Assembly: GCF_011634835.1 (NCBI RefSeq)
Contig: NZ_SIRP01000001.1
Coordinates: 3,546,768-3,601,230 of the forward strand
DNA length: 54,463 nucleotides
Reading direction: 5' to 3'
Source: Isoptericola sp. BMS4
Lineage (GTDB): Bacteria; Actinomycetota; Actinomycetes; Actinomycetales; Cellulomonadaceae
Shown piece by piece: positions 3,795-29,575 of the stretch. Every line of letters begins with the position of its first letter. The first letter of the stretch is position 1. The notes under the pieces are model-generated. The model was not told the origin of the DNA and did no database searches. It worked only from the letters and a program-made list of their open reading frames with translations. Both the position numbers and the translations under genes were made by a program.

Positions 3795-4841
3795 GTGACC
3801 AGGCCCACCGCGACCGCCGTCGTCGAGTCCCCGCTGCAGCTGCTGTGCGCCGTGGAGGCCCACGCCGCCGGGCACGGCGACGCGCGCACGCTGGTGCGTG
3901 CCCGTGCCGACGTGGCCACCCTCGCCGCGACGGTGTCGACCGTCGAGGCGCTCGGGCTCCCCGACGGGCTCGACGCGGTCGTCGGCCCGCCGCCCCGGCG
4001 GCTGCCGGACGGTGTCGTGACCGTCGGCGACGCGTTCTCGGGGGCCTTCCAGTCCGCGCTCGTCCGGGCGCCGCGCCCGCCGCGGCGGCTCGTCGTCGTC
4101 GACGACGGCCTCGCCACCCTCGACCTCGCCCGCCGCCTGGTCTCGTCCGCCCCCCTCGTGCGGCCGGGCACCCTGCCGGACCCCCTGCGCCTGGGGCTGG
4201 GCGCGCTGGCCGGGCGCCGCCTGCGCCGCCTGGCGCGCGGGGGCCGCGTGGTGCTGTGCACGACGCTGCCGCTGCCGGCCCCGCTGGTCACCGGCCTGCG
4301 CGCGCTCGGGGTGCACGTCGAGACGCACGGCTTCGAGTGGCTGCGGTCGCGTCCGCGCCCCGAGGCTCCCGCCGAGGACACGGTCGTGGTCGGCTCCGCG
4401 TTCGTCGCCGACGGGCTGGTGCACGCCGACCGGTACGCCGCGTGGATCCGCGGGATCGCCGCCGACGGCCCGGTGCGCTACCTGCCGCACCGCCGCCACG
4501 ACCCGCTGGTCACGGCGCTCCTGGAACGGCTGCCGGGCGTCACGGTCGACGCCCCGGGCGCCCCCGTGGAGGTCCGCCTGCGCGGCATGCGGGCCGGGCA
4601 GCGCGTCGTGTCGCTGCCGTCGACGTCCGCGATCACGCTGACGCGGCTCCTCGCCCCGGCGGGCGTGGGCGTCGTGCCGCACGCGGTCCCCGCCGAGTGG
4701 TGGACGGGGCGGGTCGACGACGCGCTGCGGGAGCACCTGGGCACGGCGCGCGACCTCGCGCTCCGCGCCCGCCCGGCCGCGCCCGCGCCGGCGCGCCTGG
4801 ACCCCGCGGGCGACGGCACGATGTCGCCGGCGCGCGCATGA
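3795..4841 (+). CDS. Polysialyltransferase/GT52-like glycosyltransferase
   Basis: A 348-residue protein starting at GTG 3795. The N-terminal motif VVESPLQLLCAVEA and the internal VVVDDGLAT are hallmarks of proteins related to sialyltransferase GT52 and polysialyltransferase families. A late PSTSAITLTRLL segment, usual in the donor-binding half, is also present. It probably transfers a CMP-activated sugar; the acceptor is unknown. The stop overlaps the next start (ATGA), so the two genes are coupled. The assignment rests on motif memory and is moderate. The nearby CMP-nonulosonate biosynthetic fusion supports it. Confidence 0.6.
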   Translation: MTRPTATAVVESPLQLLCAVEAHAAGHGDARTLVRARADVATLAATVSTVEALGLPDGLDAVVGPPPRRLPDGVVTVGDAFSGAFQSALVRAPRPPRRLVVVDDGLATLDLARRLVSSAPLVRPGTLPDPLRLGLGALAGRRLRRLARGGRVVLCTTLPLPAPLVTGLRALGVHVETHGFEWLRSRPRPEAPAEDTVVVGSAFVADGLVHADRYAAWIRGIAADGPVRYLPHRRHDPLVTALLERLPGVTVDAPGAPVEVRLRGMRAGQRVVSLPSTSAITLTRLLAPAGVGVVPHAVPAEWWTGRVDDALREHLGTARDLALRARPAAPAPARLDPAGDGTMSPARA

Positions 4842-6079
4842 GCGCCCCCCGGGTCCTGGCCGTCGCCGACTCGGACTCGTACCTGAAGTGGGCCGTGTGG
4901 ACGCTGGCCCGGCTGCGCGACGACGCCGCCGCGGGGCGGACGGACGTCCCGCAGGTGTCCGCCGTGGTGGTGCGCTCACCCATCGCCCCGACGCCCGAGC
5001 AGGCGGCGGCCGCGGTCACCGGCACCGGGCTGCCGCTGCCGCCCGTACTCTCACCCGCCGCGGTGCGGCGGCTGGCGCGCCGGGCGCGCCCGGACGTCGT
5101 GCTCGTCGCCGCGACCGGCCCGGTCGCCGAGCTGGTCGCGCGGCACGTCGTCGGCGCCACGGCGCCGCACCGGCCGGCCCTGGTGGCCGGCCTGCCCGGG
5201 ATGGCCCTGCCGGCCACGGAACCGGGCACCGGGTGGCGGCGGTGGTGCGACGCGTTCCTCGTGCACGCGAGGGTCGAGCGCGCGCCGTACGCCGCCGCGT
5301 TCGCGGCCCACGGGGCGACGCCCGAGCTGGCGCTCACCCGCCTGCCCTTCCTCGCCCGGGCACCGCACGGCGACGGTGAGCACGCCCCGGGGGCCGGGCT
5401 CCTGCCGGGCCTGCCCGGCGTCGGCGACCGCGCGCGCCCCGCCCCGAGGGTCCGGCGGGCCGTGCTCGCCGCCCAGGCCAAGGTGCCGTCGGCCTGGTCG
5501 GACCGCGTGCACCTGCTGGACGGGATTGCCCGCCTCTCGTCGGGCGGCCTCGACGTGGTCGTCAAGCTCCGCGCCCGCTCCGGGGAGCGGCAGACGCACA
5601 ACGAGGCCCACCCGCTCGACGCGCTGTGGGCCGCCGAGCACCGCCGCCTCGGCCACGCCGCGGGGACGCTGCGCTTCGCGACGGGTCCGATGAGCGGCTT
5701 CCTCACCCCGGGCACCGCGCTGCTCACGGTGAGCTCGACCGCCGCGCTCGAGTCCCTGGCGCTCAGCCTGCCCACGGTGTTCCTCGCGGACTTCGGCGTC
5801 GGGCCCGAGCTGCTGAACCCGCCGTTCGCCGGCTCGGGCTGCCTGCTGCACCTCGACGAGGTCGCGGCGTCGCTGCGGGCCGGGGGTCCGGTGCCGGACC
5901 CCGCCTGGTGCGCGGAGCACTACCTGCACGACGACGCGTCGCAGGTTCCCGCCGTCGTCGCCCGGCTGACCGAGCGCGCCCGTGCCGGCACCCTGCCCGA
6001 GCGCACGGTCTCCCCGTGGTCGTGGAAGCGGCACGGCTGGACGGTGCTGCGCTCCGCCGTCCCCGCCGCCCTCACCTGA
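4838..6079 (+). CDS. DUF6716-type putative glycosyltransferase
   Basis: A 413-residue protein that begins VLAVADSDSYLKWA, the opening I associate with the DUF6716 putative glycosyltransferase family found beside neuB-type genes in actinobacteria. The C-terminal part shows a GT-B-like donor site: VVVKLRAR, a NEAHPLDALW stretch and LTVSSTAALESLALSLPTVFL, where S-T-A-A-L resembles the nucleotide-sugar loop of polysialyl/GT52 relatives. ATG 4838 overlaps the preceding stop by 4 bases. Its likely role is to elongate or branch the nonulosonate polymer with the coupled upstream protein. The catalytic function is inferred. Confidence 0.65.
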   Translation: MSAPRVLAVADSDSYLKWAVWTLARLRDDAAAGRTDVPQVSAVVVRSPIAPTPEQAAAAVTGTGLPLPPVLSPAAVRRLARRARPDVVLVAATGPVAELVARHVVGATAPHRPALVAGLPGMALPATEPGTGWRRWCDAFLVHARVERAPYAAAFAAHGATPELALTRLPFLARAPHGDGEHAPGAGLLPGLPGVGDRARPAPRVRRAVLAAQAKVPSAWSDRVHLLDGIARLSSGGLDVVVKLRARSGERQTHNEAHPLDALWAAEHRRLGHAAGTLRFATGPMSGFLTPGTALLTVSSTAALESLALSLPTVFLADFGVGPELLNPPFAGSGCLLHLDEVAASLRAGGPVPDPAWCAEHYLHDDASQVPAVVARLTERARAGTLPERTVSPWSWKRHGWTVLRSAVPAALT

Positions 6080-6159: not shown

Positions 6160-7287
6160 CTACGCGCGATGGTCGGCCACGGCGCGGGCGGTGAGGCCTC
6201 GCACGAACCCCGCGCCCCACGCCAGGTGCATGACGACGATCACCACCGGCAGCACCAGCGCCTCCCCCGGTGCGAGCGCCGGACGGCGGACGGCGGCGTG
6301 CGCCGTCGCCGCCAGGACGCCCAGCCCGTACAGGAGAGGAACGACCGCCCCGAGCAGCGCGAGCGCCGGCAGAGCCACCAGGAGGCCCGCCGCGACGGCG
6401 GCCGCCGAGGCCCCCAGTCCCAGGACCAGGGCGGGCGGGGCGAGGTAGCGCGCGCTCGCCGTCGTGCGGTCCCGGCGGATCACCTCCCGGCGCCACATGC
6501 CGGTGCGCCAGAACTGCTTGGCGACGGCGCGCAGCGTCCGCCGCGGGCGGTACGTCACGACGAGCGCGGGGTCGAACCAGAGCAGCCCGCCCGCCCGGCG
6601 CAGCCGCAGGCACAGCTCCCAGTCCTCGGCGCGCACCAGCGACGGGTCGTAGCCGCCGACGGCCTCGACGGCCCCGCGGCGGAACGCCCCGAGGTAGACC
6701 GTCTCGGACGGGCCGGCCTTGCCACCCACGTGGAACGACGCCGCGCCGATCCCCGCCGGGTGGCTCATCGCGCGCGCGACCGCCCGCTGCACCGGCGTCG
6801 TCCCGACCGGGTGCATGAGACCGCCGACGGCGACGGCGCCCGTGCGCTCCAGCGTCGCCACGCACCGGCGGACGTAGTCGGCCGGCAGCACCGTGTGCCC
6901 GTCGACGCGCAGGAGCACGTCCTCGCCGGCCGGCCCCGCCACCCCGGGGGCGCCGTCCCGCAGGGCGCCGGTGCGCTCGATCGCCAGGTTGAGACCGATC
7001 GACCGCGAGCCCGTGGGGTTGTCCACGACCACCACACGCTCGTCGGCGGCGGCCAGGCGCTCGGCCACCCGCGCGGTGCCGTCGTGCGAGGGCCCGACGG
7101 CGAGCACCAGCCGCAGCGGCCCGGTGTAGTCCTGCGCCAGCACGGACGCGACCGCCTCGGCGAGGTACGCCTCCTCGTCGCGCACGCACGCGACGACGAA
7201 GACGGCGACGCTCCGCTCCACCGCCCCGGTGCCGGGGGTGGGCCGCTCCCCCGTGCCCGTCCGCCGGCCGACCGTCGCCTCAGCCAC
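6160..7287 (-). CDS. Membrane-anchored GT2 glycosyltransferase
   Basis: A 375-residue GT2 enzyme. The nucleotide-binding half includes VACVRDEEAYLAEAVASVLAQ, a VDGHTVLP acidic motif in the DxD position, and a late RAEDWELCLRLRRAGG with the general-base ED. The C-terminal third (from about 290) is hydrophobic with about three membrane helices. The layout resembles ExoA-like succinoglycan glycosyltransferases. The start chosen is GTG 7287, with GGAGAG 9 nt upstream, overlapping the preceding stop by 8 bases. Last gene of the operon from the fusion gene at 11806; the 27-bp hairpin lies beyond its stop. Confidence 0.8.
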   Translation of the reverse strand: MAEATVGRRTGTGERPTPGTGAVERSVAVFVVACVRDEEAYLAEAVASVLAQDYTGPLRLVLAVGPSHDGTARVAERLAAADERVVVVDNPTGSRSIGLNLAIERTGALRDGAPGVAGPAGEDVLLRVDGHTVLPADYVRRCVATLERTGAVAVGGLMHPVGTTPVQRAVARAMSHPAGIGAASFHVGGKAGPSETVYLGAFRRGAVEAVGGYDPSLVRAEDWELCLRLRRAGGLLWFDPALVVTYRPRRTLRAVAKQFWRTGMWRREVIRRDRTTASARYLAPPALVLGLGASAAAVAAGLLVALPALALLGAVVPLLYGLGVLAATAHAAVRRPALAPGEALVLPVVIVVMHLAWGAGFVRGLTARAVADHRA

Positions 7288-8671
7288 GGCGGCTCTCCAC
7301 GGCCCCCATGGCGGCCCGCACGTCCTCCCCGGCACGGGCGTACCGGCCGCGGGCCAGGCGGCGCAGCGCGCCCCCGGTGCGGCGGTCCAGCCGGTCCGCG
7401 ACGGCCAGGAGCCGCGACGACCGCCACGGCGAGAGCCCGAAGCCGCCGGGCAGGCCCAGCGCGGTGAGCCGCCTGCGGCGGAACCACAGCCGCACCTCGG
7501 CGTCGTCGAGCTCGCCGAGCAGATCCTCCGTCGGCGCGCGGAACCGCGCCAGGTGGCGCGGCTGCTGGCAGTACGACACCGCGCGGACCAGCCGCTGCAG
7601 GCGCTCCGGGTCCCGCCACGGCCCGTCGGCCCGGTCGAGGGCGTCCACGACGACGGCCGGCACCCGGTTGCTGTTCTCGTACGGCTCCAGGCGGTCGAGG
7701 AGCATCGCCGTGCCGACGCTCGCCGTCGGCAGCCCGAAGACCGCGGACGCCGTCGCGAGCGCCGTCGAGAAGCAGGAGACCACGAGCCCGGGCGCCGCGG
7801 CCTCGAAGACCTGCTCGGCGAGGACGCCGGGCGGGGCCGTGCGCAGGGTCACGCCGAGCGTGCGGGCGTGCTCCGCGAGGTCCGCCGTGCCCTGACGCGG
7901 CGCCGACGGGTGCGGCTTGAGCACCACGTCCGTGAAGCCACGGTCGGCCGCGGTGCGCACCATGGTGCGGTGCAGCGCCGCCTCCTCCTCGGGGGTGACG
8001 AGGCCGATCGCCGACAGGTACTGCCCCAGGAGCAGGGCGTAGGAGCCCGGCCCGGGCAGGCGGGACACGAGCGGGTCGTCGTCGGCCGCGCCGAGGCCCG
8101 CCACGACCTTGCGGAACGCCTCGCCCGGCACGACCGCGGTCGGCACGTCCCACTCCGCGAGCAGGGACGGGCGCACGCCGGGCAGCAGGTCCAGGTGCAC
8201 CAGCCGCTCGATCCGGCCGCCGACCTCGAACGGCAGCCGGGACCGGGTGGGCCCGTAGACCATGAGCCCGTCCGCGTACACCGTCACCGCCGCGCCGGAG
8301 AAGATGCGCACCAGCGCCGACGTCGGGGACGTCGCGACGGACTCCCCGACCAGCTCCAGCGGCTCGTCGCCCAGGCCCCAGCGCTCGCGCAGCAGCCGCT
8401 GCCACAGCGGCACGTCCTGCTCGCGCGGCGACCACTGCTGGGGGTGGTACGGCGCCACCACGTCGTTCCACGCCACGACGTCGTCGAAGCGCGCGCGCAG
8501 CGGCGCGAAGCCCGGCCCGTCGGCGAACGCGGGGTGCGCCTCCGGCACGGGCACGTTGTTCTGCACCACCAGCAGCGTGCGCTCGCGCCGCGGCAGCACG
8601 CCCGCGTCCCACGCGGCCGCCACGGAGGCGGCCCCGAAGAGCGTCGAGGCGGTGATGATCTGGACCGTCAC
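7280..8671 (-). CDS. Polysialyltransferase-family (POLYST-like) glycosyltransferase
   Basis: A 463-residue protein. The N-terminus TVQIITASTLFGAASVAAAWDAG and VLVVQNN-type strands, a DLLPGVRPSLLAE segment, DVVLKPHPSAPR (the family HP motif) and LVVSCFSTALATASAVFGLPTAS match bacterial polysialyltransferases (PF07388). Members polymerise CMP-sialic acid. GTG 8671 overlaps the stop of the upstream GT2 (GTGA), with AGGGAG in front. Its place directly behind the CMP-nonulosonate fusion makes a nonulosonic acid (Kdn or similar) polymerase the best guess; donor and linkage are not visible in the sequence. Confidence 0.72.
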   Translation of the reverse strand: MTVQIITASTLFGAASVAAAWDAGVLPRRERTLLVVQNNVPVPEAHPAFADGPGFAPLRARFDDVVAWNDVVAPYHPQQWSPREQDVPLWQRLLRERWGLGDEPLELVGESVATSPTSALVRIFSGAAVTVYADGLMVYGPTRSRLPFEVGGRIERLVHLDLLPGVRPSLLAEWDVPTAVVPGEAFRKVVAGLGAADDDPLVSRLPGPGSYALLLGQYLSAIGLVTPEEEAALHRTMVRTAADRGFTDVVLKPHPSAPRQGTADLAEHARTLGVTLRTAPPGVLAEQVFEAAAPGLVVSCFSTALATASAVFGLPTASVGTAMLLDRLEPYENSNRVPAVVVDALDRADGPWRDPERLQRLVRAVSYCQQPRHLARFRAPTEDLLGELDDAEVRLWFRRRRLTALGLPGGFGLSPWRSSRLLAVADRLDRRTGGALRRLARGRYARAGEDVRAAMGAVESRRG

Positions 8672-9675
8672 AGGTGGACTCCCTGGCGTCGGACGGCGGC
8701 CGCCCGGTCGTGGCCGATCCGGGCGGCCTGGGCGACGACGACGTCCCGGTCGAACCGGGACACGAGCGCGTTGGCCCGTGTGACCATCTGCGCCCGCACG
8801 TCGTCCGGATAGGCGCCGCGACGCCGCACGTGATGGTGGAGCACCACCAGCACGTCGCGCAGGGCCTTGGGCTCGTACTCGGGCAGGCCGGCGGCACGCA
8901 GCCGGTCGAGGACGGCGTCGTACGCGGCGAGGAACCCGAGCTGCCGGGCGTCGCCGATGTCGGTGAGGGACCCGGCCACCTGCCGCCGGTACACGTACCC
9001 CGGGGAGTCGGCGACCGCGTACGCGCTGGTCCCGAGGAGCAGGCGCCACGCCCACTCCCGGTCCTCCGCCGTCGGCAGGTCCTCGTCGAAGACCGCCAGC
9101 CCGTCGTCCACGACCCGGCGGGACAGGAACCGGCTGGAGACCTGCACGTAGTTGACCAGCGTGCTGCGGGTGGTCGGCATGATGCCCGTGCGCGGGTCGA
9201 GCACCGCCTCGCGGCGCGGCTCGGGGGCCCGCACGACCCGCCGGTCCCTGCCCCGGGCCCGCACCTGGTCGCAGACGAGGAAGTCCACGCCGCCGGCGCT
9301 GCCCGCGTGCCGGTCCGCGCTGCGCAGCATGGCCGCGAGGTGGCCCGGGTAGAACCAGTCGTCGGGGTCGAGGAACGTCACCCACCGGCCGGTGGCGCGG
9401 CGCACCCCGTGGTTGCGCGCCGCGGAGACGCCGCGCGGCACGGGGTGCCGCGCGACGTCCAGCCGGGCCAGGCGGGAGCCGGCGTCCTCGAGCGCCTCGG
9501 CGGTGTCGTCCACCGAGCCGTCGTCGACGACGACGACCTCGAGGTCGTCACCGAGGTCGCCGCCCCCGGGGCCCTGGCGCGCCAGGCTGCCGAACGCGTC
9601 GGGCAGGTGCGCGGCCGCGTCCCGGGCGGGGACCACGACCGACACCGCCGGCCGCCTGGGTCGCCTGTCCAGCAT
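8668..9675 (-). CDS. GT2 family glycosyltransferase
   Basis: A 335-residue soluble GT2 enzyme: VSVVVPARDAAAHLPDAFGSL at the N-terminus, VVVDDGSVDDT, a VSAARNHGVRRATG segment and the metal-binding FLDPDDWFYP, with TAEDREWAWRLL supplying the candidate catalytic base. No membrane segments. It likely adds one sugar to a lipid-linked or polymer acceptor in the cytoplasm. ATG 9675 lies 10 bases after the fusion gene stop, and its own stop overlaps the polysialyltransferase-like gene, so it sits inside one operon. Donor sugar unknown. Confidence 0.8.
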   Translation of the reverse strand: MLDRRPRRPAVSVVVPARDAAAHLPDAFGSLARQGPGGGDLGDDLEVVVVDDGSVDDTAEALEDAGSRLARLDVARHPVPRGVSAARNHGVRRATGRWVTFLDPDDWFYPGHLAAMLRSADRHAGSAGGVDFLVCDQVRARGRDRRVVRAPEPRREAVLDPRTGIMPTTRSTLVNYVQVSSRFLSRRVVDDGLAVFDEDLPTAEDREWAWRLLLGTSAYAVADSPGYVYRRQVAGSLTDIGDARQLGFLAAYDAVLDRLRAAGLPEYEPKALRDVLVVLHHHVRRRGAYPDDVRAQMVTRANALVSRFDRDVVVAQAARIGHDRAAAVRRQGVHL

Positions 9676-9685
9676 CCGCGGTCCG

Positions 9686-11806
9686 TCAGGCGTCGACGCG
9701 GCGCAGGCGCGACATCGGCGCGAGCTCGCCCGGCATGACCCGCTTCTCGCCGTCGCCCAGGGCGTCCTGGAGGATCCGGATGTCGCGCACGAGGTTCGTC
9801 AGGCCCTTCGGCTCGAGCGAGGCGGCATGGTCGGAGCCCCACATCGCCCGGTCCAGGGTGATGTGGCGCTCGACGGCGACGGCGCCGAGCGCGACCGCGG
9901 CCAGCGAGATCTGCAGGCCCGTCTCGTGGCCCGAGTAGCCGACGGGCACGCCGTACCGCTCCTGCAGCGTGCCGATCGTGCGCAGGTTGGCCTCCTCGGG
10001 AGGCAGCGGGTACGTCGAGGTGGAGTGCAGGATCACCAGGTCGTCGGTGCCGAGGATCCCCACGGCCGCGTCGATCTGCTCCAGCGTCGACATGCCGGTC
10101 GACAGGATCATCGGCTTGCCGGTGTCCGCGAGCGCCCGCAGCAGCTCGTGGTCGGTCACCGACGCCGACGCGATCTTGTGCGTGGGCACGCCGAACTCCT
10201 CGAGGAACGCCACCGAGGGCGCGTCCCACGGGGACGCGAACCACTGGATGCCCCGGGACTTCGCGTACTGGTCGATCTCGGTGTACTGCTCGTGCTCGAA
10301 CTCGACCTTGTACTTGTACTCCAGGTAGGTCATCTCGCCCCAGGGCGTCTGGCGGATCTTGTCCCGCTGGTCCTTGGGGGTGCTGATCTCCGGGGTGCGC
10401 TTCTGGAACTTCACCGCCTGGCAGCCGGCCTCGGCCGCGACGTCGATGAGCTTCTTGGCGTTCTCGACGTCGCCGTTGTGGTTGATGCCGATCTCGCCGA
10501 TGACGTACACGGGCCGGCCGGCGCCGACCTCGTGGTCGCCGATCTGCACGGTCGCGGGGGTCTCGTTCGTCGCGGTCATGGGGATGTCCTTTCGGGTGAC
10601 GGGGCGTGCGGGCGGGCCCGCGGGGTCGGCGCGACGGGCCGCGAGGACGCGGTCGCACGCTTCTCGGACGGCGCCGTGGCCGCCCGGGCGGGCCAGGACG
10701 ACGCGCGCGGCGTCCTGCACCTGCGGGTGGGCGTCGGCGGTGGCCACGGGCCAGCCGACGAGGGTCAGGGCGGGAAGGTCGTTGACGTCGTTGCCGACGT
10801 ACGCCACCCGCGCGGGGTCGAGGTCGTTCTCGGCGCACCAGTCGCGCAGCGCGGTCGCCTTGTCGTCGACGCCGTGCCGCACGTCGACGCCGAGCTTGCG
10901 GCCGCGGGCCGCGACGACGGGGTTGGTCTCGGTCGACAGGATGAGCATCGGCACGCCGGCGCGGCGCAGCAGGGCCACGCCCATGCCGTCGCCGCGGTGC
11001 ACGCGCACGCTCTCCGTCCCGTCCTGGCTGACGTAGGCGGCGTCGTCGGTGTGCACGCCGTCGAAGTCGGTGACGAGGGCGTCGGCGTCGATCGGCGCGT
11101 CGGCCGCCGTCGTCGCCGCCGGACGCGCGAGCTCCTGGGCGAGCCACAGGTCGCGCGGCTCGTCGATCTCCAGCGCCCGGTCCGGGTCGACGGGCTGCAG
11201 CCCCACGGAGCCGAAGAACCGGGTACCGGCGTCCCGCAGCCCGGCCGTGCGCATCACGTAGAAGGCGCCGGTCTCGCGGAAGTGCGGGGCGCGGTCCTGG
11301 CGGCGGGGGCGGTGGTCGGTGGTGTGGCCGACGGGCGAGGGGACGTCGCCGTCGAGGCGCCACTGGAAGTCGTGGGTGGGCGCGACCGCGACGACGACGT
11401 CGTGCTCCCCGGCGGCCACGCGGCGCACGGCGGCGTCGAGGTCGTCCGGATCGATGAAGGGGGACGTCGCCTGCAGCAGCACGGTGACCGCCGGCTCGGG
11501 GCCGCCGTCGGCCACGGCGTCCACGGCGTGCAGGACGGCGGACTCCGAGCTGGCGGTGGCCCCGGCGATGGCGGCTGGCCGCTCGACGACGCGGGCGCCG
11601 GCCGCGGCGGCCTCGCCGGCGATGTCGGGGTGGTCCGTGGAGACCGCGACCTCGGTGACCGAGGGCGCGGCGAGCGCGGCGGCCACGGCGCGGGCCACGA
11701 GCGTGGTGCCCCCGACCCGCTGGAGGTTCTTGAGCGGGATCCCGGCGGAACCTCCGCGAGCGGGGATTACGACCAGCGCGCCACCACTCGAGTGGATGTC
11801 GTTCAT
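9686..11806 (-). CDS. NeuA-like CMP-nonulosonate synthetase / KdsC-like HAD phosphatase / NeuB-like synthase fusion
   Basis: One uninterrupted 706-codon frame with three enzymes. Residues 10-230 are a CMP-acylneuraminate synthetase (IPARGGSAGIPLKN, LQATSPFIDPDD, ETGAFYV). Residues 240-390 are a KdsC-like HAD phosphatase (TDFDGV with D247 and D249; VGNDVNDLPAL). Residues 410-706 are a NeuB-type synthase (VIGEIGINHNGD, AVKFQKR, ILSTGMSTL, GYSGHE, ERHITLD) without the C-terminal SAF domain. No stop separates them, but NeuB's first Met (10579) has an AAAGGA site 8 nt upstream, so it might also be made alone. Synthase, phosphatase and CMP-transferase together give a CMP-nonulosonate from a 6-phosphorylated sugar plus PEP. 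With manA divergent and no NeuC-like gene, Kdn is a better guess than Neu5Ac. Start ATG 11806 follows a leaderless -10. Confidence 0.85.
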   Translation of the reverse strand: MNDIHSSGGALVVIPARGGSAGIPLKNLQRVGGTTLVARAVAAALAAPSVTEVAVSTDHPDIAGEAAAAGARVVERPAAIAGATASSESAVLHAVDAVADGGPEPAVTVLLQATSPFIDPDDLDAAVRRVAAGEHDVVVAVAPTHDFQWRLDGDVPSPVGHTTDHRPRRQDRAPHFRETGAFYVMRTAGLRDAGTRFFGSVGLQPVDPDRALEIDEPRDLWLAQELARPAATTAADAPIDADALVTDFDGVHTDDAAYVSQDGTESVRVHRGDGMGVALLRRAGVPMLILSTETNPVVAARGRKLGVDVRHGVDDKATALRDWCAENDLDPARVAYVGNDVNDLPALTLVGWPVATADAHPQVQDAARVVLARPGGHGAVREACDRVLAARRADPAGPPARPVTRKDIPMTATNETPATVQIGDHEVGAGRPVYVIGEIGINHNGDVENAKKLIDVAAEAGCQAVKFQKRTPEISTPKDQRDKIRQTPWGEMTYLEYKYKVEFEHEQYTEIDQYAKSRGIQWFASPWDAPSVAFLEEFGVPTHKIASASVTDHELLRALADTGKPMILSTGMSTLEQIDAAVGILGTDDLVILHSTSTYPLPPEEANLRTIGTLQERYGVPVGYSGHETGLQISLAAVALGAVAVERHITLDRAMWGSDHAASLEPKGLTNLVRDIRILQDALGDGEKRVMPGELAPMSRLRRVDA

Positions 11807-12127
11807 GGGGCTGACACTAAGAGCCCGACACGACGAACCCGACGCCGTTGCGGTAACTGCGGGAGAACATTCGACTGCGGCCCGGTGAACATTCTTCGAC
11901 ACCCTCGCCGGATGGTCCCGTCGACCATTGTTCGTGCCCTTTGATGGTGCTGTCGGACGGTGCCGAACGCGCCGGACGGCGACCCCGACGACCCGCTCGA
12001 CCGGCCCGCACCCGACACCGTCGCCGCGCGCGACATGTCGTTCCGCTCCTCGCCGGAACCACTCTGACGAATGGCGCCCCCGGCCACACCGGAGTACACC
12101 GAGAAATGTCGACGACAAGGCGATGAC
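11807..12127. other. Divergent intergenic region with GAACATTC repeats
   Basis: This 321-bp gap separates the nonulosonate operon from manA. No gene is seen. It is less GC-rich than its flanks near 11850-11950. The octamer GAACATTC occurs at 11865-11872 and 11887-11894, 22 bp apart (about two helical turns), and once more at 12136-12143 inside the first codons of manA. These may be operator sites; the regulator is unknown. Confidence 0.4.
11814..11819 (-). promoter_or_regulatory. Leaderless-type -10 (TAGTGT) for the nonulosonate operon
   Basis: TAGTGT on the minus strand ends 7 nt before ATG 11806, and no ribosome site is visible. It probably drives the fusion gene, GT2, polysialyltransferase-like and second GT2 genes as one transcript. 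Confidence 0.5.
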
Positions 12128-13375
12128 ATGACGATGAACATTCGGCAAACTTCGCGCACGGGCCTGGTCCACCGGCTCGACAACCCGGTGCGCGACTACG
12201 ACTGGGGATCACCCACGCTCATCCCCGAGCTGCTCGGCCGCGCGCCCGACGGCCGACCGGCCGCGGAGCTGTGGCTCGGCGCCCACCCGGGCGCGCCGTC
12301 GGGGCTGCGGGGGGCCGGGGGGCGCTCGCTCGCCGAGCTCGTGCAGGCGGACCCCGGCACGGTGCTCGGCACCCGCGTGTCGGACCGGTTCGGCCCCCGC
12401 CTGCCGTTCCTGCTCAAGGTGCTCGCCGCGGAGCGGGCGCTGTCCCTGCAGGTGCACCCGCGCCCCCACCTGGCGCGCGCCGGGTACCACCGGGAGACGC
12501 GGGCCGGCCTGCCCGCCGGGGACCCCCGCCGCTCGTTCCACGACGAGCAGCACAAGCCGGAGATGATCGTCGCGCTGAGCACGTTCGAGGCGCTCGCCGG
12601 GTTCCGCAGCCCGCGGTCCGTGCGCGCCCTGCTCGACGGCCTCGGCGGCAGGCTCGTGGACGACCTCCGCACGATCCTGGACGGCACCTCGTCGACGGCG
12701 GGCGTGCGGGCCGCGACCGAGCGCCTGGTCGCCGCCCGCACCTCGCCCACCTGCGCCGCCGACGTCGCCGAGGCCGTCGCCTCGGTCGCCGCGCGGCACG
12801 CCGACCCGGCCCGGCCGGCCGCCACCGCGCGGGCCGACGCGACCGTGCTGACCCTCGCGGAGCAGCACCCCGGCGACCCCGGCGCGCTGGTCTCCCTGCT
12901 GCTCAACCGCGTCACGCTGGAGCCGGGCGAGGCGATGTTCGTCCCGGCGGGCGAGGTGCACGCCTACCTCTCCGGCCTCGGCGTCGAGATCATGGCGGCG
13001 TCGGACAACGTGCTGCGCGCCGGGCTGACCACCAAGCACGTCGACGCCGGCGCACTGCTGGAGTGCGCCTCGTTCGCGCCCCGCCCGCCCGCGCGGCCCG
13101 AGACGACCGTGACCGGCGCCGACAGCGTCGTGACCACCTACCGGGCCCCCGTCGACGAGTTCGCGCTGACGTTCGCCGACGTCGTCGACGGCGACCCTGT
13201 GGGGCTCGCCGCGAGCGGGCCGCGGATCGTCCTGGCCCTGGACGGCGAGGCGCGGCTGCTCACCGCCGCCGGGGACGTCACGCTGCGCCGCGGCGAGTCG
13301 TGCGTCGTCCCCGACGCCGCCGGGGCGCTGACGGTGGACGGCACCGCGCACGTCGTCTGCGCCTGGGTGCCCTGA
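12128..13375 (+). CDS. manA: Mannose-6-phosphate isomerase, class I (copy 1)
   Basis: A 415-residue type I phosphomannose isomerase that interconverts fructose 6-phosphate and mannose 6-phosphate. The expected zinc ligands are in place: Q108 and H110 (SLQVHP), E145 (HKPE) and H278 (GEVHAYL). The start ATG 12128 is preferred because AAGG lies upstream and the N-terminus matches the family; an in-frame ATG at 12071 would add 19 residues. It is divergent from the CMP-nonulosonate fusion, so it may feed mannose 6-phosphate to the NeuB-like domain. A second homologue is at 28352, where manB is also found. It converges with the dehydrogenase gene with only one base between the stops. Confidence 0.9.
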   Translation: MTMNIRQTSRTGLVHRLDNPVRDYDWGSPTLIPELLGRAPDGRPAAELWLGAHPGAPSGLRGAGGRSLAELVQADPGTVLGTRVSDRFGPRLPFLLKVLAAERALSLQVHPRPHLARAGYHRETRAGLPAGDPRRSFHDEQHKPEMIVALSTFEALAGFRSPRSVRALLDGLGGRLVDDLRTILDGTSSTAGVRAATERLVAARTSPTCAADVAEAVASVAARHADPARPAATARADATVLTLAEQHPGDPGALVSLLLNRVTLEPGEAMFVPAGEVHAYLSGLGVEIMAASDNVLRAGLTTKHVDAGALLECASFAPRPPARPETTVTGADSVVTTYRAPVDEFALTFADVVDGDPVGLAASGPRIVLALDGEARLLTAAGDVTLRRGESCVVPDAAGALTVDGTAHVVCAWVP

Positions 13376-14483: not shown

Positions 14484-14755
14484 CGTCAACCTCTTCGTCG
14501 GTGGCCTCGTGAGCCACGGGGACCGTGCCGGGCCGCGGGGTGAGCGGCCTCACGTCCCATCCTGCCCCCGACCGCGGCCGGCAGGCCCCCACACGTGCGG
14601 GGTGGCGCCGACACGCGCGGGGTCGTCCAGCGTTTGCACAGGTCACCCGGGGAGCCGTTACCGTACCGTGACCTTCCTCGATCGGCCGCCGCCCACCCCG
14701 GCACCGACCCGGCAGGACGGCGTCCCCGACCCCGGCACCGGATACGTGATCGCGC
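14484..14755. other. Divergent intergenic region before the acyltransferase
   Basis: The 272-bp gap holds no convincing gene. A TTGCAC (14633-14638) followed by TACCGT hexamers about 19 bases on could form a promoter for the acyltransferase, but the spacing is poor. A small inverted repeat around gtgagcggcctcac is present near 14540-14560. Confidence 0.3.
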
Positions 14756-16856
14756 ATGTCCTCCGTCTCCGCGGCGCCCCCCGGCGCACCGCCCCACCGA
14801 CGGCCAGCCGCGCGCACTCCGCGGCGAGATCCAGGCCCTGCGCGCGCTCGCCGTCGCGCTCGTGGTCCTCTTCCACCTCTGGCCCGGCCGCGTCCCGGGC
14901 GGCTACGTCGGCGTCGACGTCTTCTTCGTGATCTCCGGTTTCCTCATCACCGGCCACCTGCTGCGCGAGGCCGAGTCCACCGGCGGTGTCCGGCTCGGCC
15001 GGTTCTGGGCCCGGCGGGCCCGGCGGCTGCTGCCCGCCGCCTACCTCGTCGTCGCCGTCACGGTCGCCGCGACCCTGCTGGTCGCCCCGCCCGCCCTGTG
15101 GCAGCAGTGGTTCCGCGAGATCCTCGGCGCCACGCTCTACGCGGAGAACTGGGTGCTCGCCGCCGACGCCGTCGACTACCTGGCCGCCGAGGCCGACCCC
15201 TCGCCGGTGCAGCACTACTGGTCGCTGTCGACGGAGGAGCAGTTCTACCTGGTGTGGCCGCTGCTCGTGCTCGCCTCCGCCGCCGTCGCGGTCCGCGTCC
15301 GCCGCTCCACGCGCGCGACCACCGGCGTCGTCCTCGCGACGGCGACCCTCGCCTCGTTCGCGTACTCCCTGTGGCTCACGGTGGAGAACCCGGCGCCGGC
15401 GTACTTCGTGACGCCGACGCGCGCCTGGCAGTTCGGCGCGGGCGCGCTGCTCGCCCTCCTGCTCGCCCGCCCGGACCGCCGGCCGGTCCTCGGCGACGGC
15501 GTCCGCACGGCGGTGAGCTGGTCCGGCCTCACCGCGATCCTGGCGTGCGCGCTGCTCTACGACGCCGGCACGCCCTTCCCGGGCACGGCCGCGCTCGGTC
15601 CCGTGCTCGCCGCCGCGGCCGTGATCTGGGCGGGGACGCCGGCCGGACGCCTCTCCCCCGCGCCGCTGCTCGGGTGGCGACCTGTCCGGTACACGGCCGG
15701 CATCTCGTACTCGCTCTACCTGTGGCACTGGCCCGTCATCGTGTTCGCGCCCTTCGCGCTCGGCCATGATCCAGGCCTGGTCGAGCGGGTGCTCCTGCTC
15801 GCAGGCGCCGTCCTGCTGTCGGCGCTCACCAAGCGCTACGTCGAGGACCCGGTCCGCTTCGCCCGGCGCTGGGACCTGCACCGCACGCGCAGGGTGCTCG
15901 GCCTCACGGCCGCCAGCACCGTCGTCCTCGCCCTCGCCGCGGGCTGCGGCCTCGGCGTGGCGAAGCACCGGGTCGCGGAGCAGGAGCAGATCGCGCGGCA
16001 GGTCGCCACCGATCCGCCCGACTGCCTCGGCGCCGCCGCGATGGACCCCGAGGACCCCTGCCACAACCCCGACCTCGACGGCCTCCTCGTCCCCGCGCCG
16101 GAAGCGACCGAGGACGACGTCGCCGAGCACCCGGAGTGCTGGGTCGACGTCTACGAGAGCGACCTGCGCGACTGCAGCTTCGGCCCGGTCGACGATCCGG
16201 ACGTCCCGCACGTCGCCCTCGTGGGCGACTCCCACGCCCGCGCCATGCTGCCGGCGTTCCTCGAGCTCGCGCGGCAGGGCCGGATCAGCCTGACCGCGCA
16301 CCTCAAGTCGGGGTGCGCCTGGACGACCGGCGCGGTGAGCACCGGGGACGAGAAGCGCGCCGACACCTGCGAGGAGTGGAAGGGCCGGCTCCAGCCGTGG
16401 CTGGAGGAGCACACCGCTGACACCGACGTCGTCGTGACGACCGCCTACCTCAAGATGATCTCCGGCGACGCCGACCGGAAGACCGGCGAGATGGCCGCGG
16501 CCTGGCGCCCCGTCACCGAGGCCGGCGTGCCGGTCGTCGCGCTGTCCGACAACCCGTGGCACGACTTCCAGCCGTCCCGGTGCCTGGAGGAGGAGTCGTC
16601 CGTGCGGCCCGACAGCTGCGATGTCTCGACGGCCGAGGCCTTCCCCTTCGACGACACGTTCAAGGCGGCCGCCGAGGCCGTGGACGGCGCCACGTACGTG
16701 GACATGACGCGGTACTACTGCGCCGACGGCCGCTGCCCGTCGGTCATCGGCGGCGTCAACGTCTACCGGGACTCCAGCCACCTCACGACGACGTTCACCC
16801 GGACGCTGACCCCGTACCTCCTGCGCGAGCTGCGGACCGCGGGAGTCCTGGAGTGA
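14756..16856 (+). CDS. OafA/YrhL-type O-acyltransferase with C-terminal SGNH domain; apparent 5' frameshift
   Basis: From about 14815 to 16856 the sequence encodes an acyltransferase-3 protein (GEIQALRALAVALVVLFHLWPG, GGYVGVDVFFVISGFL, YWSLSTEEQFYLVWPLL, about ten membrane helices) followed by an SGNH-like domain (VALVGDSHARAM, late DSSHLT). Such proteins O-acetylate surface polysaccharide or peptidoglycan. In this frame the only start is a GTG at 14595, which gives an 86-residue unnatural leader. ATG 14756 is in another frame and runs MSSVSAAPP; dropping one C from the C6 run at 14777-14782 joins it to the rest as a normal 699-residue protein. This may be a sequencing error, a true lesion or phase variation. 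It converges with glf. Confidence 0.75.
14777..14782 (+). repeat. C6 homopolymer at the apparent frameshift
   Basis: Six consecutive cytosines between the ATG at 14756 and the coding body of the acyltransferase. One base fewer would restore the reading frame. The tract is short for classical slip-strand phase variation. Confidence 0.45.
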
Positions 16857-16865
16857 CCGTGCGGG

Positions 16866-18041
<1,176 letters not shown>

Positions 18042-19916: not shown

Positions 19917-19917
19917 C

Positions 19918-21796: not shown

Positions 21797-21802
21797 AGCC
21801 TA
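21797..21802 (-). promoter_or_regulatory. Leaderless-type -10 (TAGGCT) for the glfT2 operon
   Basis: TAGGCT on the minus strand ends 7 nt before GTG 21789 and contains the TAG stop of the upstream gene. It suggests that the Galf module can be transcribed independently. Confidence 0.5.
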
Positions 21803-23026
21803 GCGACGGCCGAGACGCCGCTTGAGCCGTCCCCCGAGCTCGCGCGCGAGCTCGCGGCCGCTCACCGACTCCAGCGCCGGCACCGGCGACGCCGCGGCGC
21901 GCTCGACCGCCGAGGCGTTCGCCGACCGCTCCTTCAGCGCCTCCCGTGCCTTCGACAGCCGTGCCTCGTCGCGGCGCCCCTGTCTCATGACTCCCAGGAT
22001 CGCCTCGGCGGCCGCGTCGATCGGGACCGTCTCGGCGCTCAGCATGGGGTGGTCCACCGAGGGGACCTCTGCCGAGAGGAGCCCGAGGTCGCCCACGACC
22101 CGCACGCCCGAGGCCTCGATCTGCTCGACGTAGCCAACGGCGCGCTCGTGCGCTCGCTCGGCGGCCCAGGTCGGCAGCACGAAGCGTGTGTCGTGGTCGC
22201 CCAGTCTGCGCCGCTTGAGCAGCGTGTTCGCCCCGGCGTCTCGGAGCCACTTGCAGTACTCGTGCCACGTGAGCTGCTCGCGGAGCCGGTGGTTGAGGGC
22301 CCGCAGCAGCTCTGCCTCCTCCACGGACATCCCGCGGTTCGACGAGTTGCCGTCGAGCTTCGCCGTGCTCAAGAGCCCGTGCTCGAGGCCGAGCATCGAC
22401 TCGAAGGCGTCGAAGAGGAGCTCCGGCGTCGACTTGTCGACGACCACCACCGTGACGTTCTCCGGGCCGAACGCCTCTGCCCACCGCGCCACGACGTCGC
22501 CCTGGTCGTGGCGCTCCTTGTACGAGCGCAGCGCGTCCCCGGGGTCCTCGGACAGGATGGCCGTGAGCCACGAGTCGAAGGAGATGGTGCTGCCGTCCTT
22601 CATCTGCTGCTGCCACACCGACGGCAGGATCGACGCGTAGTTGCGCAGCGTGACGACGACCCGTGCGCGTTCGCCGAGCTCCGTGCGCCACCGGGCGGCG
22701 GTGGCGTCGTCCGCGTTCGCGACGAACTCGTGCCCGATCCAGATCCGGTTCTCGGTGTCGGCGTCGATCTCCGCCCGCAGCTTGGCCCACGCGCCGTGGA
22801 CGGGCGTCGTCCCCCAGCCCCAGGCGTGGCCCATGAAGTCGTTCATGGCGCTGCGATGGTTCTTGTGGCGTCCCGGATACCGAACTCCACGCTCCAGGAG
22901 CTCCGGGCGCAACGAGTACGCCGCGTTCTGCAGGCTCGTCGTCCCGGTCTTCATCAGCCCGATGTGCAGCAGCAGCCCCTGCTCGGGCAGCGGCTGCACC
23001 CCGGTCGTGCCCCCACTCGTCGACAT
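21800..23026 (-). CDS. Sulfotransferase-like P-loop protein
   Basis: A 408-residue protein. LLLHIGLMKTGTTSLQ near the N-terminus (K26-S31) is a PAPS 5'-phosphosulfate-binding loop, and VVVTLRNYASILPSVWQQQ resembles the 3'-phosphate-binding R-x-x-x-S region of sulfotransferases. A later VVVVDKSTPELLFDAFESMLGL segment is typical of the same fold. The C-terminal 80 residues are charged and probably helical. It may sulfate a surface polysaccharide; no PAPS synthesis genes are in the window. ATG 23026 has AAGGAG 7 nt upstream. Its codons are slightly less GC-extreme than its neighbours, which may hint at later acquisition. Confidence 0.7.
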   Translation of the reverse strand: MSTSGGTTGVQPLPEQGLLLHIGLMKTGTTSLQNAAYSLRPELLERGVRYPGRHKNHRSAMNDFMGHAWGWGTTPVHGAWAKLRAEIDADTENRIWIGHEFVANADDATAARWRTELGERARVVVTLRNYASILPSVWQQQMKDGSTISFDSWLTAILSEDPGDALRSYKERHDQGDVVARWAEAFGPENVTVVVVDKSTPELLFDAFESMLGLEHGLLSTAKLDGNSSNRGMSVEEAELLRALNHRLREQLTWHEYCKWLRDAGANTLLKRRRLGDHDTRFVLPTWAAERAHERAVGYVEQIEASGVRVVGDLGLLSAEVPSVDHPMLSAETVPIDAAAEAILGVMRQGRRDEARLSKAREALKERSANASAVERAAASPVPALESVSGRELARELGGRLKRRLGRR

Positions 23027-26667: not shown

Positions 26668-26865
26668 CTACGGCTCGCGCGCCTCCGACTCCAGCAGCAC
26701 CGGCACGCCGTCGCGCACCGGGTAGGCCAGCGGGCGGTCCGGGTCGGTCGACCGCAGCTCCGGCTCGCCGTCCGGGCCGACGGCGTCGACCAGCTCGGCG
26801 CCGGTGACCGGGCACCGCAGGATGCTGCGCACCCACGGGTCGAGCCCCGTGTCCTGCTGGTTCAT
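26668..26865 (-). CDS. Trm112/UPF0434-like small protein
   Basis: A 65-residue protein with the Trm112 signature: WVRSILRCPVTGAELV at the N-terminus and AYPVRDGVPVLLESEA at the C-terminus. The second cysteine pair of the zinc-binding forms is missing. Trm112-type proteins partner methyltransferases in eukaryotes; the bacterial role is unclear. ATG 26865 overlaps the manB stop (ATGA) and has AGGAGG 7 nt upstream, so it is translated with manB. Confidence 0.85.
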   Translation of the reverse strand: MNQQDTGLDPWVRSILRCPVTGAELVDAVGPDGEPELRSTDPDRPLAYPVRDGVPVLLESEAREP

Positions 26866-28307
26866 GCTGTCTCCTCCTGGCGCACGAGCGACAGCACGTC
26901 GTCGCGCACCTTGATCATGATGTCCTCGTCCGCCGCCTCGACGTTGAGCCGCAGCAGCGGTTCGGTGTTCGAGGCGCGCAGGTTGAACCACCACTGCGGG
27001 TGGGCGTCGTCCCAGTGCGCGACGGTCAGCCCGTCGAGCTCGTCGACGTCGGCGTCCGGGTACGCGCTCGTGTACGCCTCGCGCACGCGCGCCGTCGCGG
27101 CCGCGGCGTCGGCGACCCGCGAGTTGAGCTCCCCCGACGCCACGTACGGCGAGTACATCTCCGCGAGCGCCGACAGGGGGTGCGGCTGGCCGCCCAGCGC
27201 GGCGAGCACGTGCAGGGCGGCGAGCATGCCGGTGTCGGCGAAGAAGAAGTCGCGGAAGTAGTAGTGCGCCGAGTGCTCGCCGCCGAAGACGGCGTCGGCC
27301 TCGGCCATCCGCGCCTTGATGAACGAGTGCCCGACACGGGTGCGCACCGCCGTCGCGCCGGCCGCCGTGAGGAGGTCCGGCACGGCGCGGGAGGTGATGA
27401 GGTTGTGGATCACGGTGGGCGTGCGACCGGCCTCGAGCTCCTTGGCGACCTCCCGCAGCCCCACCAGCGCGGTGACCGCGGACGGCGACACGGGCTCGCC
27501 GCGCTCGTCGACGACGAAGCAGCGGTCGGCGTCGCCGTCGAACGCGAGGCCGAGGTCGGCGCCGTGCTCCACGACCGCAGCCTGGAGGTCGCGCAGGTTG
27601 GCGGGCTCCAGCGGGTTCGCCTCGTGGTTCGGGAAGGTGCCGTCGAGCTCGAAGTACAGGTCCACGACGTCGAGCGGCAGGACGGGGAGCCCGGCGCCGG
27701 TGCCGAGCACCGCGGGGACGGTGTGCCCGGCCATGCCGTTGCCGGCGTCGACCACGACCTTGAGGGGCCGGATGCCGGAGAGGTCGACGAGGCCGCGCAG
27801 GAACGCCGCGTAGTCGGCGAGCGTGTCGCGCGCGGTGACGACGCCCGGCCTCGCCGCGGGCGAGGGCTCGGCGCCGTCGAGGATGCGCTGCGCGAGGTCG
27901 CGGACCTCCGCGAGGCCCGTCTCCTGACCGACGGGGCGGGCCCCGGCGCGGCACAGCTTGATGCCGTTGTACTCCGCCGGGTTGTGCGACGCGGTGAACA
28001 TGGCACCCGGGGCGTCCAGCGCCCCCGACGCGTGGTACAGCCCGTCGGTGGAGCACAGGCCGATGGTCACGACGTCGACGCCCGCCCGGGTGACCCCCTC
28101 GGCGAACGCGGCGGCGAGCGCCGGGCCGGAGTCGCGCATGTCGTGCCCGACGACGACCCGGGGCGCGGCCGGCCGGGTCCCGCCGCCGAGGACGACGACC
28201 TGGGCGAACGCGGAGCCGATGGCGCGGGCGACGTCCGGCGAGAGCTGGTCCGGCACCGTGCCGCGCACGTCGTACGCCTTGATGATCCGCGTCAGGTCGA
28301 TCGTCAC
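26862..28307 (-). CDS. manB: Phosphomannomutase/phosphoglucomutase
   Basis: A 481-residue alpha-D-phosphohexomutase that links mannose 6-phosphate and mannose 1-phosphate. The phosphoserine loop TASHNPAEYNG has S107; the metal loop DGDADR spans D257-D261; GGEHSAHYYF is the sugar-specificity loop of PMM/PGM enzymes. A leaderless -10 hexamer ends 6 nt before GTG 28307, favouring that start over GTG 28313. It is divergent from manA copy 2 across 44 bp. Together they give fructose 6-phosphate to mannose 1-phosphate for GDP-mannose. In mycobacteria the homologue Rv3257c lies in the same gene neighbourhood. Confidence 0.92.
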   Translation of the reverse strand: MTIDLTRIIKAYDVRGTVPDQLSPDVARAIGSAFAQVVVLGGGTRPAAPRVVVGHDMRDSGPALAAAFAEGVTRAGVDVVTIGLCSTDGLYHASGALDAPGAMFTASHNPAEYNGIKLCRAGARPVGQETGLAEVRDLAQRILDGAEPSPAARPGVVTARDTLADYAAFLRGLVDLSGIRPLKVVVDAGNGMAGHTVPAVLGTGAGLPVLPLDVVDLYFELDGTFPNHEANPLEPANLRDLQAAVVEHGADLGLAFDGDADRCFVVDERGEPVSPSAVTALVGLREVAKELEAGRTPTVIHNLITSRAVPDLLTAAGATAVRTRVGHSFIKARMAEADAVFGGEHSAHYYFRDFFFADTGMLAALHVLAALGGQPHPLSALAEMYSPYVASGELNSRVADAAAATARVREAYTSAYPDADVDELDGLTVAHWDDAHPQWWFNLRASNTEPLLRLNVEAADEDIMIKVRDDVLSLVRQEETA

Positions 28308-28313
28308 GCTCAC

Positions 28314-28319
28314 AGGGTA
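28314..28319 (-). promoter_or_regulatory. Leaderless-type -10 (TACCCT) for manB
   Basis: TACCCT on the minus strand ends 6 nt before GTG 28307. It occupies the short divergent gap with manA copy 2. Confidence 0.5.
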
Positions 28320-28351
28320 CGTGCCCGCGCCGGTGTGGAAGGCTGTCACTC

Positions 28352-29575
28352 GTGCCGGAGCTGTACCCGCTGGAGAACACCGTCCAGCACTACGACTGGG
28401 GTTCCACCACGCGGCTGCACGACCTGCTCGGCACCACGCCGGACGGCGACCCGGCCGCGGAGCTCTGGCTGGGCGCCCACCCGAACGCGCCGAGCCGGGT
28501 GGCGGGCCCCGGCGCGACGACCCCGACCTCGCTGCTCGACCTGGTACGGCGTGCCCCGGAGGAGATGCTCGGGCGCCGGGTGGCCGACGACTACGGGCCC
28601 CGGCTGCCGTACCTGCTCAAGGTGCTGGCGGCCCGGCGGGCGCTGTCGTTGCAGGTGCACCCCCGGCCGCACGCGGCGCGCGCGGGGTTCAACCGCGAGA
28701 ACCTGCTCGGCCTGGCGCCGACCGACCCGCGGCGGTCGTTCCACGACGACCAGCACAAGCCCGAGATGGTGGTCGCGCTCACCGAGTTCGACGGCCTGGC
28801 GGGGTTCCGCACGCCGCGCACGGTGCTCGACCTGCTGGACGACCTCGACGGGCCGCTCGTCGCGCGGGTGCGCGACACCCTGCGCTCGGACCGGTCCTCG
28901 CGGGGGGTGCGGGAGGCGTTCTCGCGCCTCGTCGCGGCCCGGCGCGCCCCGGGCACGCCCGACGCGGTGGCGACGACGGTGGCGTCGGTGGCCGCGCGCC
29001 TCGCGGACGGGTCGGCCACCGCGCGGGCGGACGCCACCGCCGTGCTCCTCGCCGAGCAGCACCCGGGCGACCCGGGCGCGATCGCGTCGTTCCTGCTCAA
29101 CCGGGTCACGCTCGACCCCGGCGAGGCGCTCTTCCTGCCGTCGGGCGAGGTGCACGCCTACCTCGCCGGCGTCGGCGTCGAGGTGATGGCGTCCTCGGAC
29201 AACGTGCTCCGGGCGGGCCTGACCACCAAGCGCGTCGACGAGGAGGCACTCGTCGAGTGCGCGTCGTTCGTGCCCCGCCCGCCGGCGGTGCCGGAGGTGC
29301 GGACGACCGGGGACCGCGGCCAGGTGCGCACCTACCGGGCACCCGTGGCCGAGTTCGCGCTGACGGCGGCGGACGTCGAGCCCGGCGAGGAGGTCGACCT
29401 GCCCGGAGCCGGGCCGCGGATCGTCCTGTGCCTCGACGGCGACGTCACGGTGGCCGCGTCCCGCTGCGCCGCCGGCGCGGCGCTGCGCCGGGGACGCTCG
29501 GTGTTCGTGCCCGACGCCGCCGGCGCGCTGCGCCTGTCCGGCACCGGGCACGTCGTCTGCGCCTGGGTGCCCTGA
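28352..29575 (+). CDS. manA: Mannose-6-phosphate isomerase, class I (copy 2)
   Basis: A 407-residue phosphomannose isomerase, clearly paralogous to the copy at 12128. It shares YDWGS near the N-terminus, SLQVHPRPHAARAG, HKPEMVVAL, PGEALFLPSGEVHAYL with the zinc-binding residues, and the same C-terminal HVVCAWVP. GTG 28352 with GGAAGG 11 nt upstream is the start. Its partner across the divergent promoter is manB, so this is probably the housekeeping copy for GDP-mannose supply. A short hairpin follows its stop. Confidence 0.92.
   Translation: MPELYPLENTVQHYDWGSTTRLHDLLGTTPDGDPAAELWLGAHPNAPSRVAGPGATTPTSLLDLVRRAPEEMLGRRVADDYGPRLPYLLKVLAARRALSLQVHPRPHAARAGFNRENLLGLAPTDPRRSFHDDQHKPEMVVALTEFDGLAGFRTPRTVLDLLDDLDGPLVARVRDTLRSDRSSRGVREAFSRLVAARRAPGTPDAVATTVASVAARLADGSATARADATAVLLAEQHPGDPGAIASFLLNRVTLDPGEALFLPSGEVHAYLAGVGVEVMASSDNVLRAGLTTKRVDEEALVECASFVPRPPAVPEVRTTGDRGQVRTYRAPVAEFALTAADVEPGEEVDLPGAGPRIVLCLDGDVTVAASRCAAGAALRRGRSVFVPDAAGALRLSGTGHVVCAWVP

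Follow-up and report, generated by a model that had tools for sequence, protein, structure and literature searches.

A NeuA-HAD phosphatase-NeuB fusion gene in Isoptericola sp. BMS4, probably a three-enzyme chain for CMP-Kdn synthesis

The stretch of DNA analysed here (the window, 54,463 nucleotides) comes from Isoptericola sp. BMS4, a soil-type actinobacterium, and carries on its minus strand a frame of 706 aa that runs from an ATG at 11806 to a stop at 9686 and joins three enzyme domains in one chain with a computed mass of 75.0 kDa. The gene and its parts are the following:

9686..11806, minus strand: fused gene NeuA-HAD phosphatase-NeuB (frame, Pfam/NCBIfam, structure model)
11117..11779, minus strand: NeuA-type cytidylyltransferase domain, about residues 10-230, best PDB match 9t4z
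10634..11080, minus strand: KdsC-like HAD phosphatase domain, residues 243-391, by family and structure matches
9689..10561, minus strand: NeuB-type synthase domain, apparently without SAF domain, residues 416-706
10562..10627, minus strand: disordered linker (pLDDT under 50) that forms the fusion junction, residues 394-415
10587..10593, minus strand: internal Shine-Dalgarno-like GAAAGGA (clade forms GRAAGGA or GAGAGGA)
10577..10579, minus strand: internal in-frame ATG, residue 410, a possible start of a 297-aa, 32.5-kDa NeuB

Around it lie these genes and repeats:

11851..11890, minus strand: PHO-box-like 11-bp direct repeats upstream of the fused gene (GTTCACC, a degenerate unit, GTTCTCC, GTTACCG)
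12125..13375, plus strand: ManA, mannose-6-phosphate isomerase, divergent neighbour (family match, PF20511)
28352..29575, plus strand: second ManA copy (family match)
26862..28349, minus strand: phosphoglucomutase/phosphomannomutase beside the second ManA (family match)
8668..9675, minus strand: GT2 glycosyltransferase, next downstream of the fusion (family match)
7280..8530, minus strand: polysialyltransferase-family protein (PF07388, 68.5 bits), start approximate
6160..7335, minus strand: GT2 glycosyltransferase, start approximate
4838..6079, plus strand: putative glycosyltransferase DUF6716 (PF20471), its start taken from the reading frame
3795..4841, plus strand: GT-B protein with no family name, best structural match a bacterial polysialyltransferase

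The original prediction, a stop-free frame through NeuA, a KdsC-like phosphatase and NeuB, agrees with both the translation and the Pfam/NCBIfam matches, and its mass of 73 kDa has to be raised to the computed value; it named no strand. The NeuA-like match covers residues 12-224 and belongs to PF02348 (70.6 bits, gathering score 22.6); the NeuB match, the sole one in the whole genome, covers residues 433-698 and the complete profile of PF03102 (positions 1-241 of 241; 280 bits, gathering score 22.1). No equivalog cut-off among the NCBIfam models is reached by the fused protein: its score is 271.7 bits against a cut-off of 399.65 for N-acetylneuraminate synthase (TIGR03569), 97 bits for the HAD domain against 180 for Kdn-9-phosphate phosphatase (NF058599). 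The KdsC model gives 104 bits with 208 needed, and KdsC-type structures are clear matches of the HAD domain although the cut-off of the KdsC-type subfamily TIGR01670 is missed (81.8 bits, cut-off 106.95). The NeuB domain covers positions 1-273 of the 329 of TIGR03569, and the predicted structure stops with the barrel; the unmatched end of TIGR03569 is presumably the C-terminal SAF (antifreeze-like) domain, which the fused protein thus appears to lack. The AlphaFold2 model, whose alignment held 112 rows (the window protein and 111 of 136 listed homologue stretches), has three confident domains with a mean pLDDT of 88.9, and its low-pLDDT stretches are the linker and the short residues 1-6 and 230-234; with a pTM of only 0.46, it does not give the relative placement of the domains.

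Re-reading of the DNA at the junction yielded the codons GTC ACC CGA AAG GAC ATC CCC ATG, in line with the junction and ribosome site reported from a codon-by-codon reading, with GAAAGGA 7 nt ahead of the in-frame ATG. With no stop in between, translation from the first ATG necessarily yields the whole chain. At 76% GC an open linker of 40 codons has a probability of 0.60 by chance alone, so that a single genome proves little. The genus was searched (18 genomes; fusions called by reading the junctions in the DNA; anchors fixed on either side of the linker for the length and GC counts), and 13 genomes, which make up the window's clade, hold the full-length gene in one stop-free frame. In a further genome (G005) the NeuA-HAD and NeuB genes are split and lie in different frames, and the remaining four lack the full gene, two having no match and two weak HAD matches only. 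The 13 linkers have seven different lengths, every one divisible by 3, and their GC at codon positions 1, 2 and 3 is 0.69, 0.61 and 0.93; the corresponding stretch of nine split Promicromonospora loci, partly coding there too, gives 0.69, 0.60 and 0.67. The combination of linker lengths that are all multiples of 3 with a GC3 of 0.93 makes the linker look translated, with its frame kept. It could be argued that an assembly or sequencing artefact deleted a stop, but the 13 clade genomes agree without exception, three of them as single-contig assemblies (G003, G006 and G009), and these independent assemblies already refute an artefact, the probability of which is practically nil. The fusion is genuine, not a slip of the assembly.

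A second reading of the junction concerns the ribosome site within it. One of the two clade forms of the site stands 7 nt before a start codon in all 13 clade genomes (ATG, but GTG in Krasilnikoviella), and this site and start resemble the start of the split Promicromonospora neuB genes. In the clade, neuA-HAD and neuB were probably joined when the stop codon separating them was lost, and the former neuB ribosome site stayed in place. The internal start was also considered as exceptional for its Shine-Dalgarno duplex energy, an idea that was rejected: the energies in the clade are unremarkable, being matched at roughly 4-20% of in-gene positions, and conservation alone marks the site. A nested NeuB product is accordingly proposed because the site is conserved, not because it is strong; in the window's clade, a separate 32.5-kDa NeuB may be made besides the full chain, and the room that the original prediction saw for such a product is a real possibility. 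Taken further, the fusion could be a mere by-product of stop loss at high GC, in which the internally started NeuB is what matters, whereas the NeuB part carried by the long chain is of little importance or is cleaved away. The chance-open linker and the unbroken retention of the neuB ribosome site and start would fit this, but the frame-preserving linker lengths with coding-type GC3, the ordinary duplex energy of the site and the recurrence of fusions elsewhere, including 14 genomes of the Microbispora-containing family with no Met at the junction, argue against it, and we regard it as unlikely. Linkers of that family are rich in Ala and Pro and lack Met within the 28 codons inspected in the 14 fused genomes; they have GTG codons, at one of which the duplex energy is passable in 7 of 17 loci, so an internal start via GTG is just conceivable there. 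An in-frame ATG is also present in eight fused loci of Cellulomonas and Cellulosimicrobium type, with a duplex energy of -4 or better in seven.

The three-domain architecture recurs in Cellulomonas, Cellulosimicrobium and the Microbispora-containing family and is fixed in the window's clade. In a scan of named genomes, from which the best 80 of 309 loci were kept, it was found in 22 of these 80. In a draw of 200 genomes from the family, 18 have one full-length stop-free match, and two Cellulosimicrobium-type genomes matched in two pieces (G048 and G091) are also fused, their coordinates being those of loci L066 and L076. A class-wide draw of 394 genomes gave 115 with a match at E 1e-30 and 16 with one full-length stop-free match, namely two from the window's genus and 14 from the family (f24, with 20 matched genomes in all) in which Microbispora was placed by identical NeuB sequences. 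A survey of homologues for the same junction, which had been proposed as a check, thus returned the fusion in frame in 13 of 13 clade genomes and further fusions in other lineages. On a NeuB tree of 104 rows, the three-domain state changes five times, and at least four of the changes are forced by well-supported branches (quick method with likelihood-ratio support only; nine rows with identical NeuB dropped, the long branches L081, L086 and L148 kept); these at least four changes may be gains or losses.

Other joins occur among the best 80 of the 309 loci. Ten, all from Mucilaginibacter (L100, L115, L116, L120-L125 and L127), have a HAD-NeuB fusion only, with no adjoining NeuA match, and form one clade on the NeuB tree; this would be another way of joining enzymes of the pathway. 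In one locus, that of Sediminivirga luteola (L092, 10001-11560), NeuA is joined straight to NeuB with no HAD between, and in locus L109 NeuA and NeuB are adjacent and split, the HAD being likewise absent between them.

The identity of the product is approached through the NeuA domain, the phosphatase and the supply of the hexose. The best PDB match of the NeuA domain is PpNeuA, titled CMP-Kdn synthetase (9t4z, 99 bits; murine and Neisseria enzymes 82), which is also its best fold match in the structure search. The usual source of ManNAc is an epimerase of PF02350 (UDP-GlcNAc 2-epimerase family). No member of PF02350 was found in the whole 4.43-Mb, 99.99%-complete genome, and no NanE match over the cut-off either (best 21.7 bits, cut-off 27). 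The lack of a UDP-GlcNAc epimerase that the original prediction read from the window extends to the whole genome. Across the 51 strong-homologue genomes of the family draw, PF02350 is absent from 20 and present in 31; it is absent from 8 of the 18 fused ones, and also from the Cellulosimicrobium-type genomes G048 and G091. The presence of a HAD phosphatase domain implies a phosphorylated nonulosonate intermediate, and Bacteroides thetaiotaomicron and Prymnesium parvum make Kdn by way of such an intermediate (PMC6200933).

The neighbouring mannose-6-phosphate isomerase, likewise part of the original prediction, was found as ManA at 12125..13375, and its counterpart sits 0.25-2.9 kb from the fused gene in all 13 clade genomes. 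Two ManA copies are present in 11 of the 13, compared with a single copy in each of five other genus members (two of these five assemblies being incomplete) and, in 22 genomes of other genera, one copy in 21 and none in one. These counts were taken with PF20511; PF01238 was rejected as a detector, having missed both ManA genes of the genome itself and matched only 2 of 14 controls. ManA was not found beside the fusion in the fused genomes of Cellulomonas type or of the Microbispora-containing family that were examined, and it lies beside split genes in Myceligenerans (L088) and in G053, probably one genome. The argument that isomerase and missing 2-epimerase favour Kdn thus holds in this genome and in relatives, with the isomerase link confined to the window's clade.

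The same chain could instead make CMP-Neu5Ac, with a synthase that uses ManNAc-6-P as in animals. The NeuB and CMAS-type domains also match Neu5Ac enzymes, and the PF02350 gene of 31 homologue-bearing genomes could provide for this route; against it stand the fused genomes devoid of that gene, the window's included, the NanE score under the cut-off, the tie between ManA and the fusion within the clade and the CMP-Kdn synthetase as nearest NeuA structure. We consider CMP-Neu5Ac distinctly unlikely, even with the precedent of Leptospira, in which a synthase (N-terminal) and a phosphatase (C-terminal), but no cytidylyltransferase, share one chain that was assigned to Neu5Ac and for which the authors infer phosphorylated intermediates (PMC3438082). 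A different nonulosonate, be it legionaminic, pseudaminic or a C9 acid from another hexose phosphate, is very unlikely: with no equivalog cut-off reached the substrate is formally open, and the protein scores 226 bits with PseI and 82 bits with PseF, but the respective cut-offs are 340 and 206 bits. Legionaminic and pseudaminic routes moreover begin with UDP-sugars and are not known to involve a HAD phosphatase, a domain that is present here. Among the nonulosonates, Kdn is in our judgement the probable product, and the evidence best supports a single chain of three enzymes that leads from a phosphorylated sugar to a CMP-sugar, in all likelihood CMP-Kdn.

Nonulosonate genes and polymer glycosyltransferases lie together at the locus, as in a teichulosonic-acid cluster, and the end product is likely a teichulosonic-acid-type wall polymer; in several related bacterial groups, too, the fusion stands next to genes resembling those for wall polymers. 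Four of the 13 clade genomes, and all three of Cellulomonas type, have no PF07388 gene close to the fusion; a second, stronger PF07388 match (112 bits) lies in the same genome about 18 kb ahead of the window start (G000:C1:3527665-3528615). The protein of 3795..4841 has no family match in Pfam or NCBIfam, and its gene is conserved with the cluster; Foldseek ranks a C-glycosyltransferase first and sialyl- or polysialyltransferases second to fifth, and a second look at these candidates with VIA-align puts polysialyltransferase first, which makes it a candidate for a new nonulosonate transferase family. Elsewhere in the window, 16866-21789 encodes a UDP-galactopyranose mutase and a pair of GT proteins, of which one has GlfT2-type domains; by its gene content this is a galactofuran-type module, and Isoptericola relatives retain it next to the fusion. 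At the cluster edge (756-2516) there is a teichoic-acid polymerase-like PF04464 match (29 bits, cut-off 22), and phosphate-containing and phosphate-free wall polymers may therefore be encoded together. By the cluster, 14595-16856 encodes an acyltransferase-3/SGNH protein that possibly modifies the polymer. In a relative (L053, 7245-9786), two or three sulfotransferase-like frames were seen by eye between ManA and the fused gene; a frame of the window at 21800-23026 looks similar to these and has no Pfam match.

The PHO-box-like repeats upstream of the fused gene were evaluated in 55 of 60 loci against control tiles taken from the locus itself. In the window they are weak (p 0.06), and relatives have stronger ones: p is 0.02 or less in 8 of 11 loci of the window's clade (window included), 8 of 9 of Cellulomonas type, 7 of 17 of Microbacteriaceae type, and none of 13 of Promicromonospora type or of 5 of Microbispora. 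An earlier test with single-base shuffles, in which 24 of the 60 loci reached p 0.05 or less, was replaced by this control. Over the window as a whole, GTTCACC repeats are about as frequent as chance would have it, with 6 matches against 3.5 expected and as many in 12 of 100 shuffles.

The individual reactions are already known. B. thetaiotaomicron and P. parvum make Kdn through the reactions from Man-6-P that are predicted here, with synthase and CMP-Kdn synthetase as separate proteins instead of one chain, and in P. parvum no phosphatase homologue was found (PMC6200933). The murine CMP-sialic acid synthetase (1qwj, 3ewi) has NeuA followed by HAD in the same order as here, but no NeuB domain. 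NeuB of the Neisseria type (1xuu, 4ipi) shares the TIM-barrel catalytic domain, whereas its SAF domain appears to be absent here; the Neisseria enzyme takes unphosphorylated ManNAc (PMC6200933). The main wall polymer of Streptomyces coelicolor is a Gal-Kdn teichulosonic acid (PMC7831098), and its wall-polymer cluster SCO4873-SCO4882 has sialic-acid-synthase and GT2 genes, as the present locus does (PMC13011467, PMC7831098, PMC8269224). That cluster is under PhoP control, to which the PHO-box-like repeats of several relatives, weak in the window, may be compared (PMC13011467). Four near-full-length genomes of a family that is probably Streptomyces (f26, assignment inferred) have stops between the genes, unlike the window's fusion. 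For a single chain from sugar phosphate to activated nonulosonic acid, no precedent was found among the matches listed from the open-licence literature. The architecture occurs in more than this one genome, and part-fusions exist in Leptospira and Mucilaginibacter. A report of Kdn in walls of the window's genus was likewise not among the matches listed in the literature search.

Taken together, it is likely that one polypeptide leads from Man-6-P to CMP-Kdn and feeds a Kdn-containing wall polymer. ManA next door would supply Man-6-P, which the NeuB domain would condense with PEP to Kdn-9-phosphate; the HAD domain would dephosphorylate this to Kdn, and the NeuA domain would activate Kdn with CTP. 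The resulting CMP-Kdn would pass to the neighbouring polysialyltransferase-like and GT2 enzymes for a teichulosonic-acid-type polymer. A bolder and rather doubtful extension holds that this trifunctional CMP-Kdn synthase, of repeated stop-loss origin, channels Kdn-9-P and Kdn, comes with an extra nested NeuB and is induced by PhoP, so that phosphate-starved cells would swap teichoic acid for a phosphate-free Kdn polymer.

If the main proposal is true, one chain would span the way from a central sugar phosphate to an activated nonulosonic acid and could be put to direct use in the preparation of CMP-Kdn. The recurrent fusions, some of which retain an internal start while others do not, would form a natural series on when and why pathway enzymes fuse, and the fused gene would allow actinobacteria that have Kdn wall polymers to be recognised by sequence.
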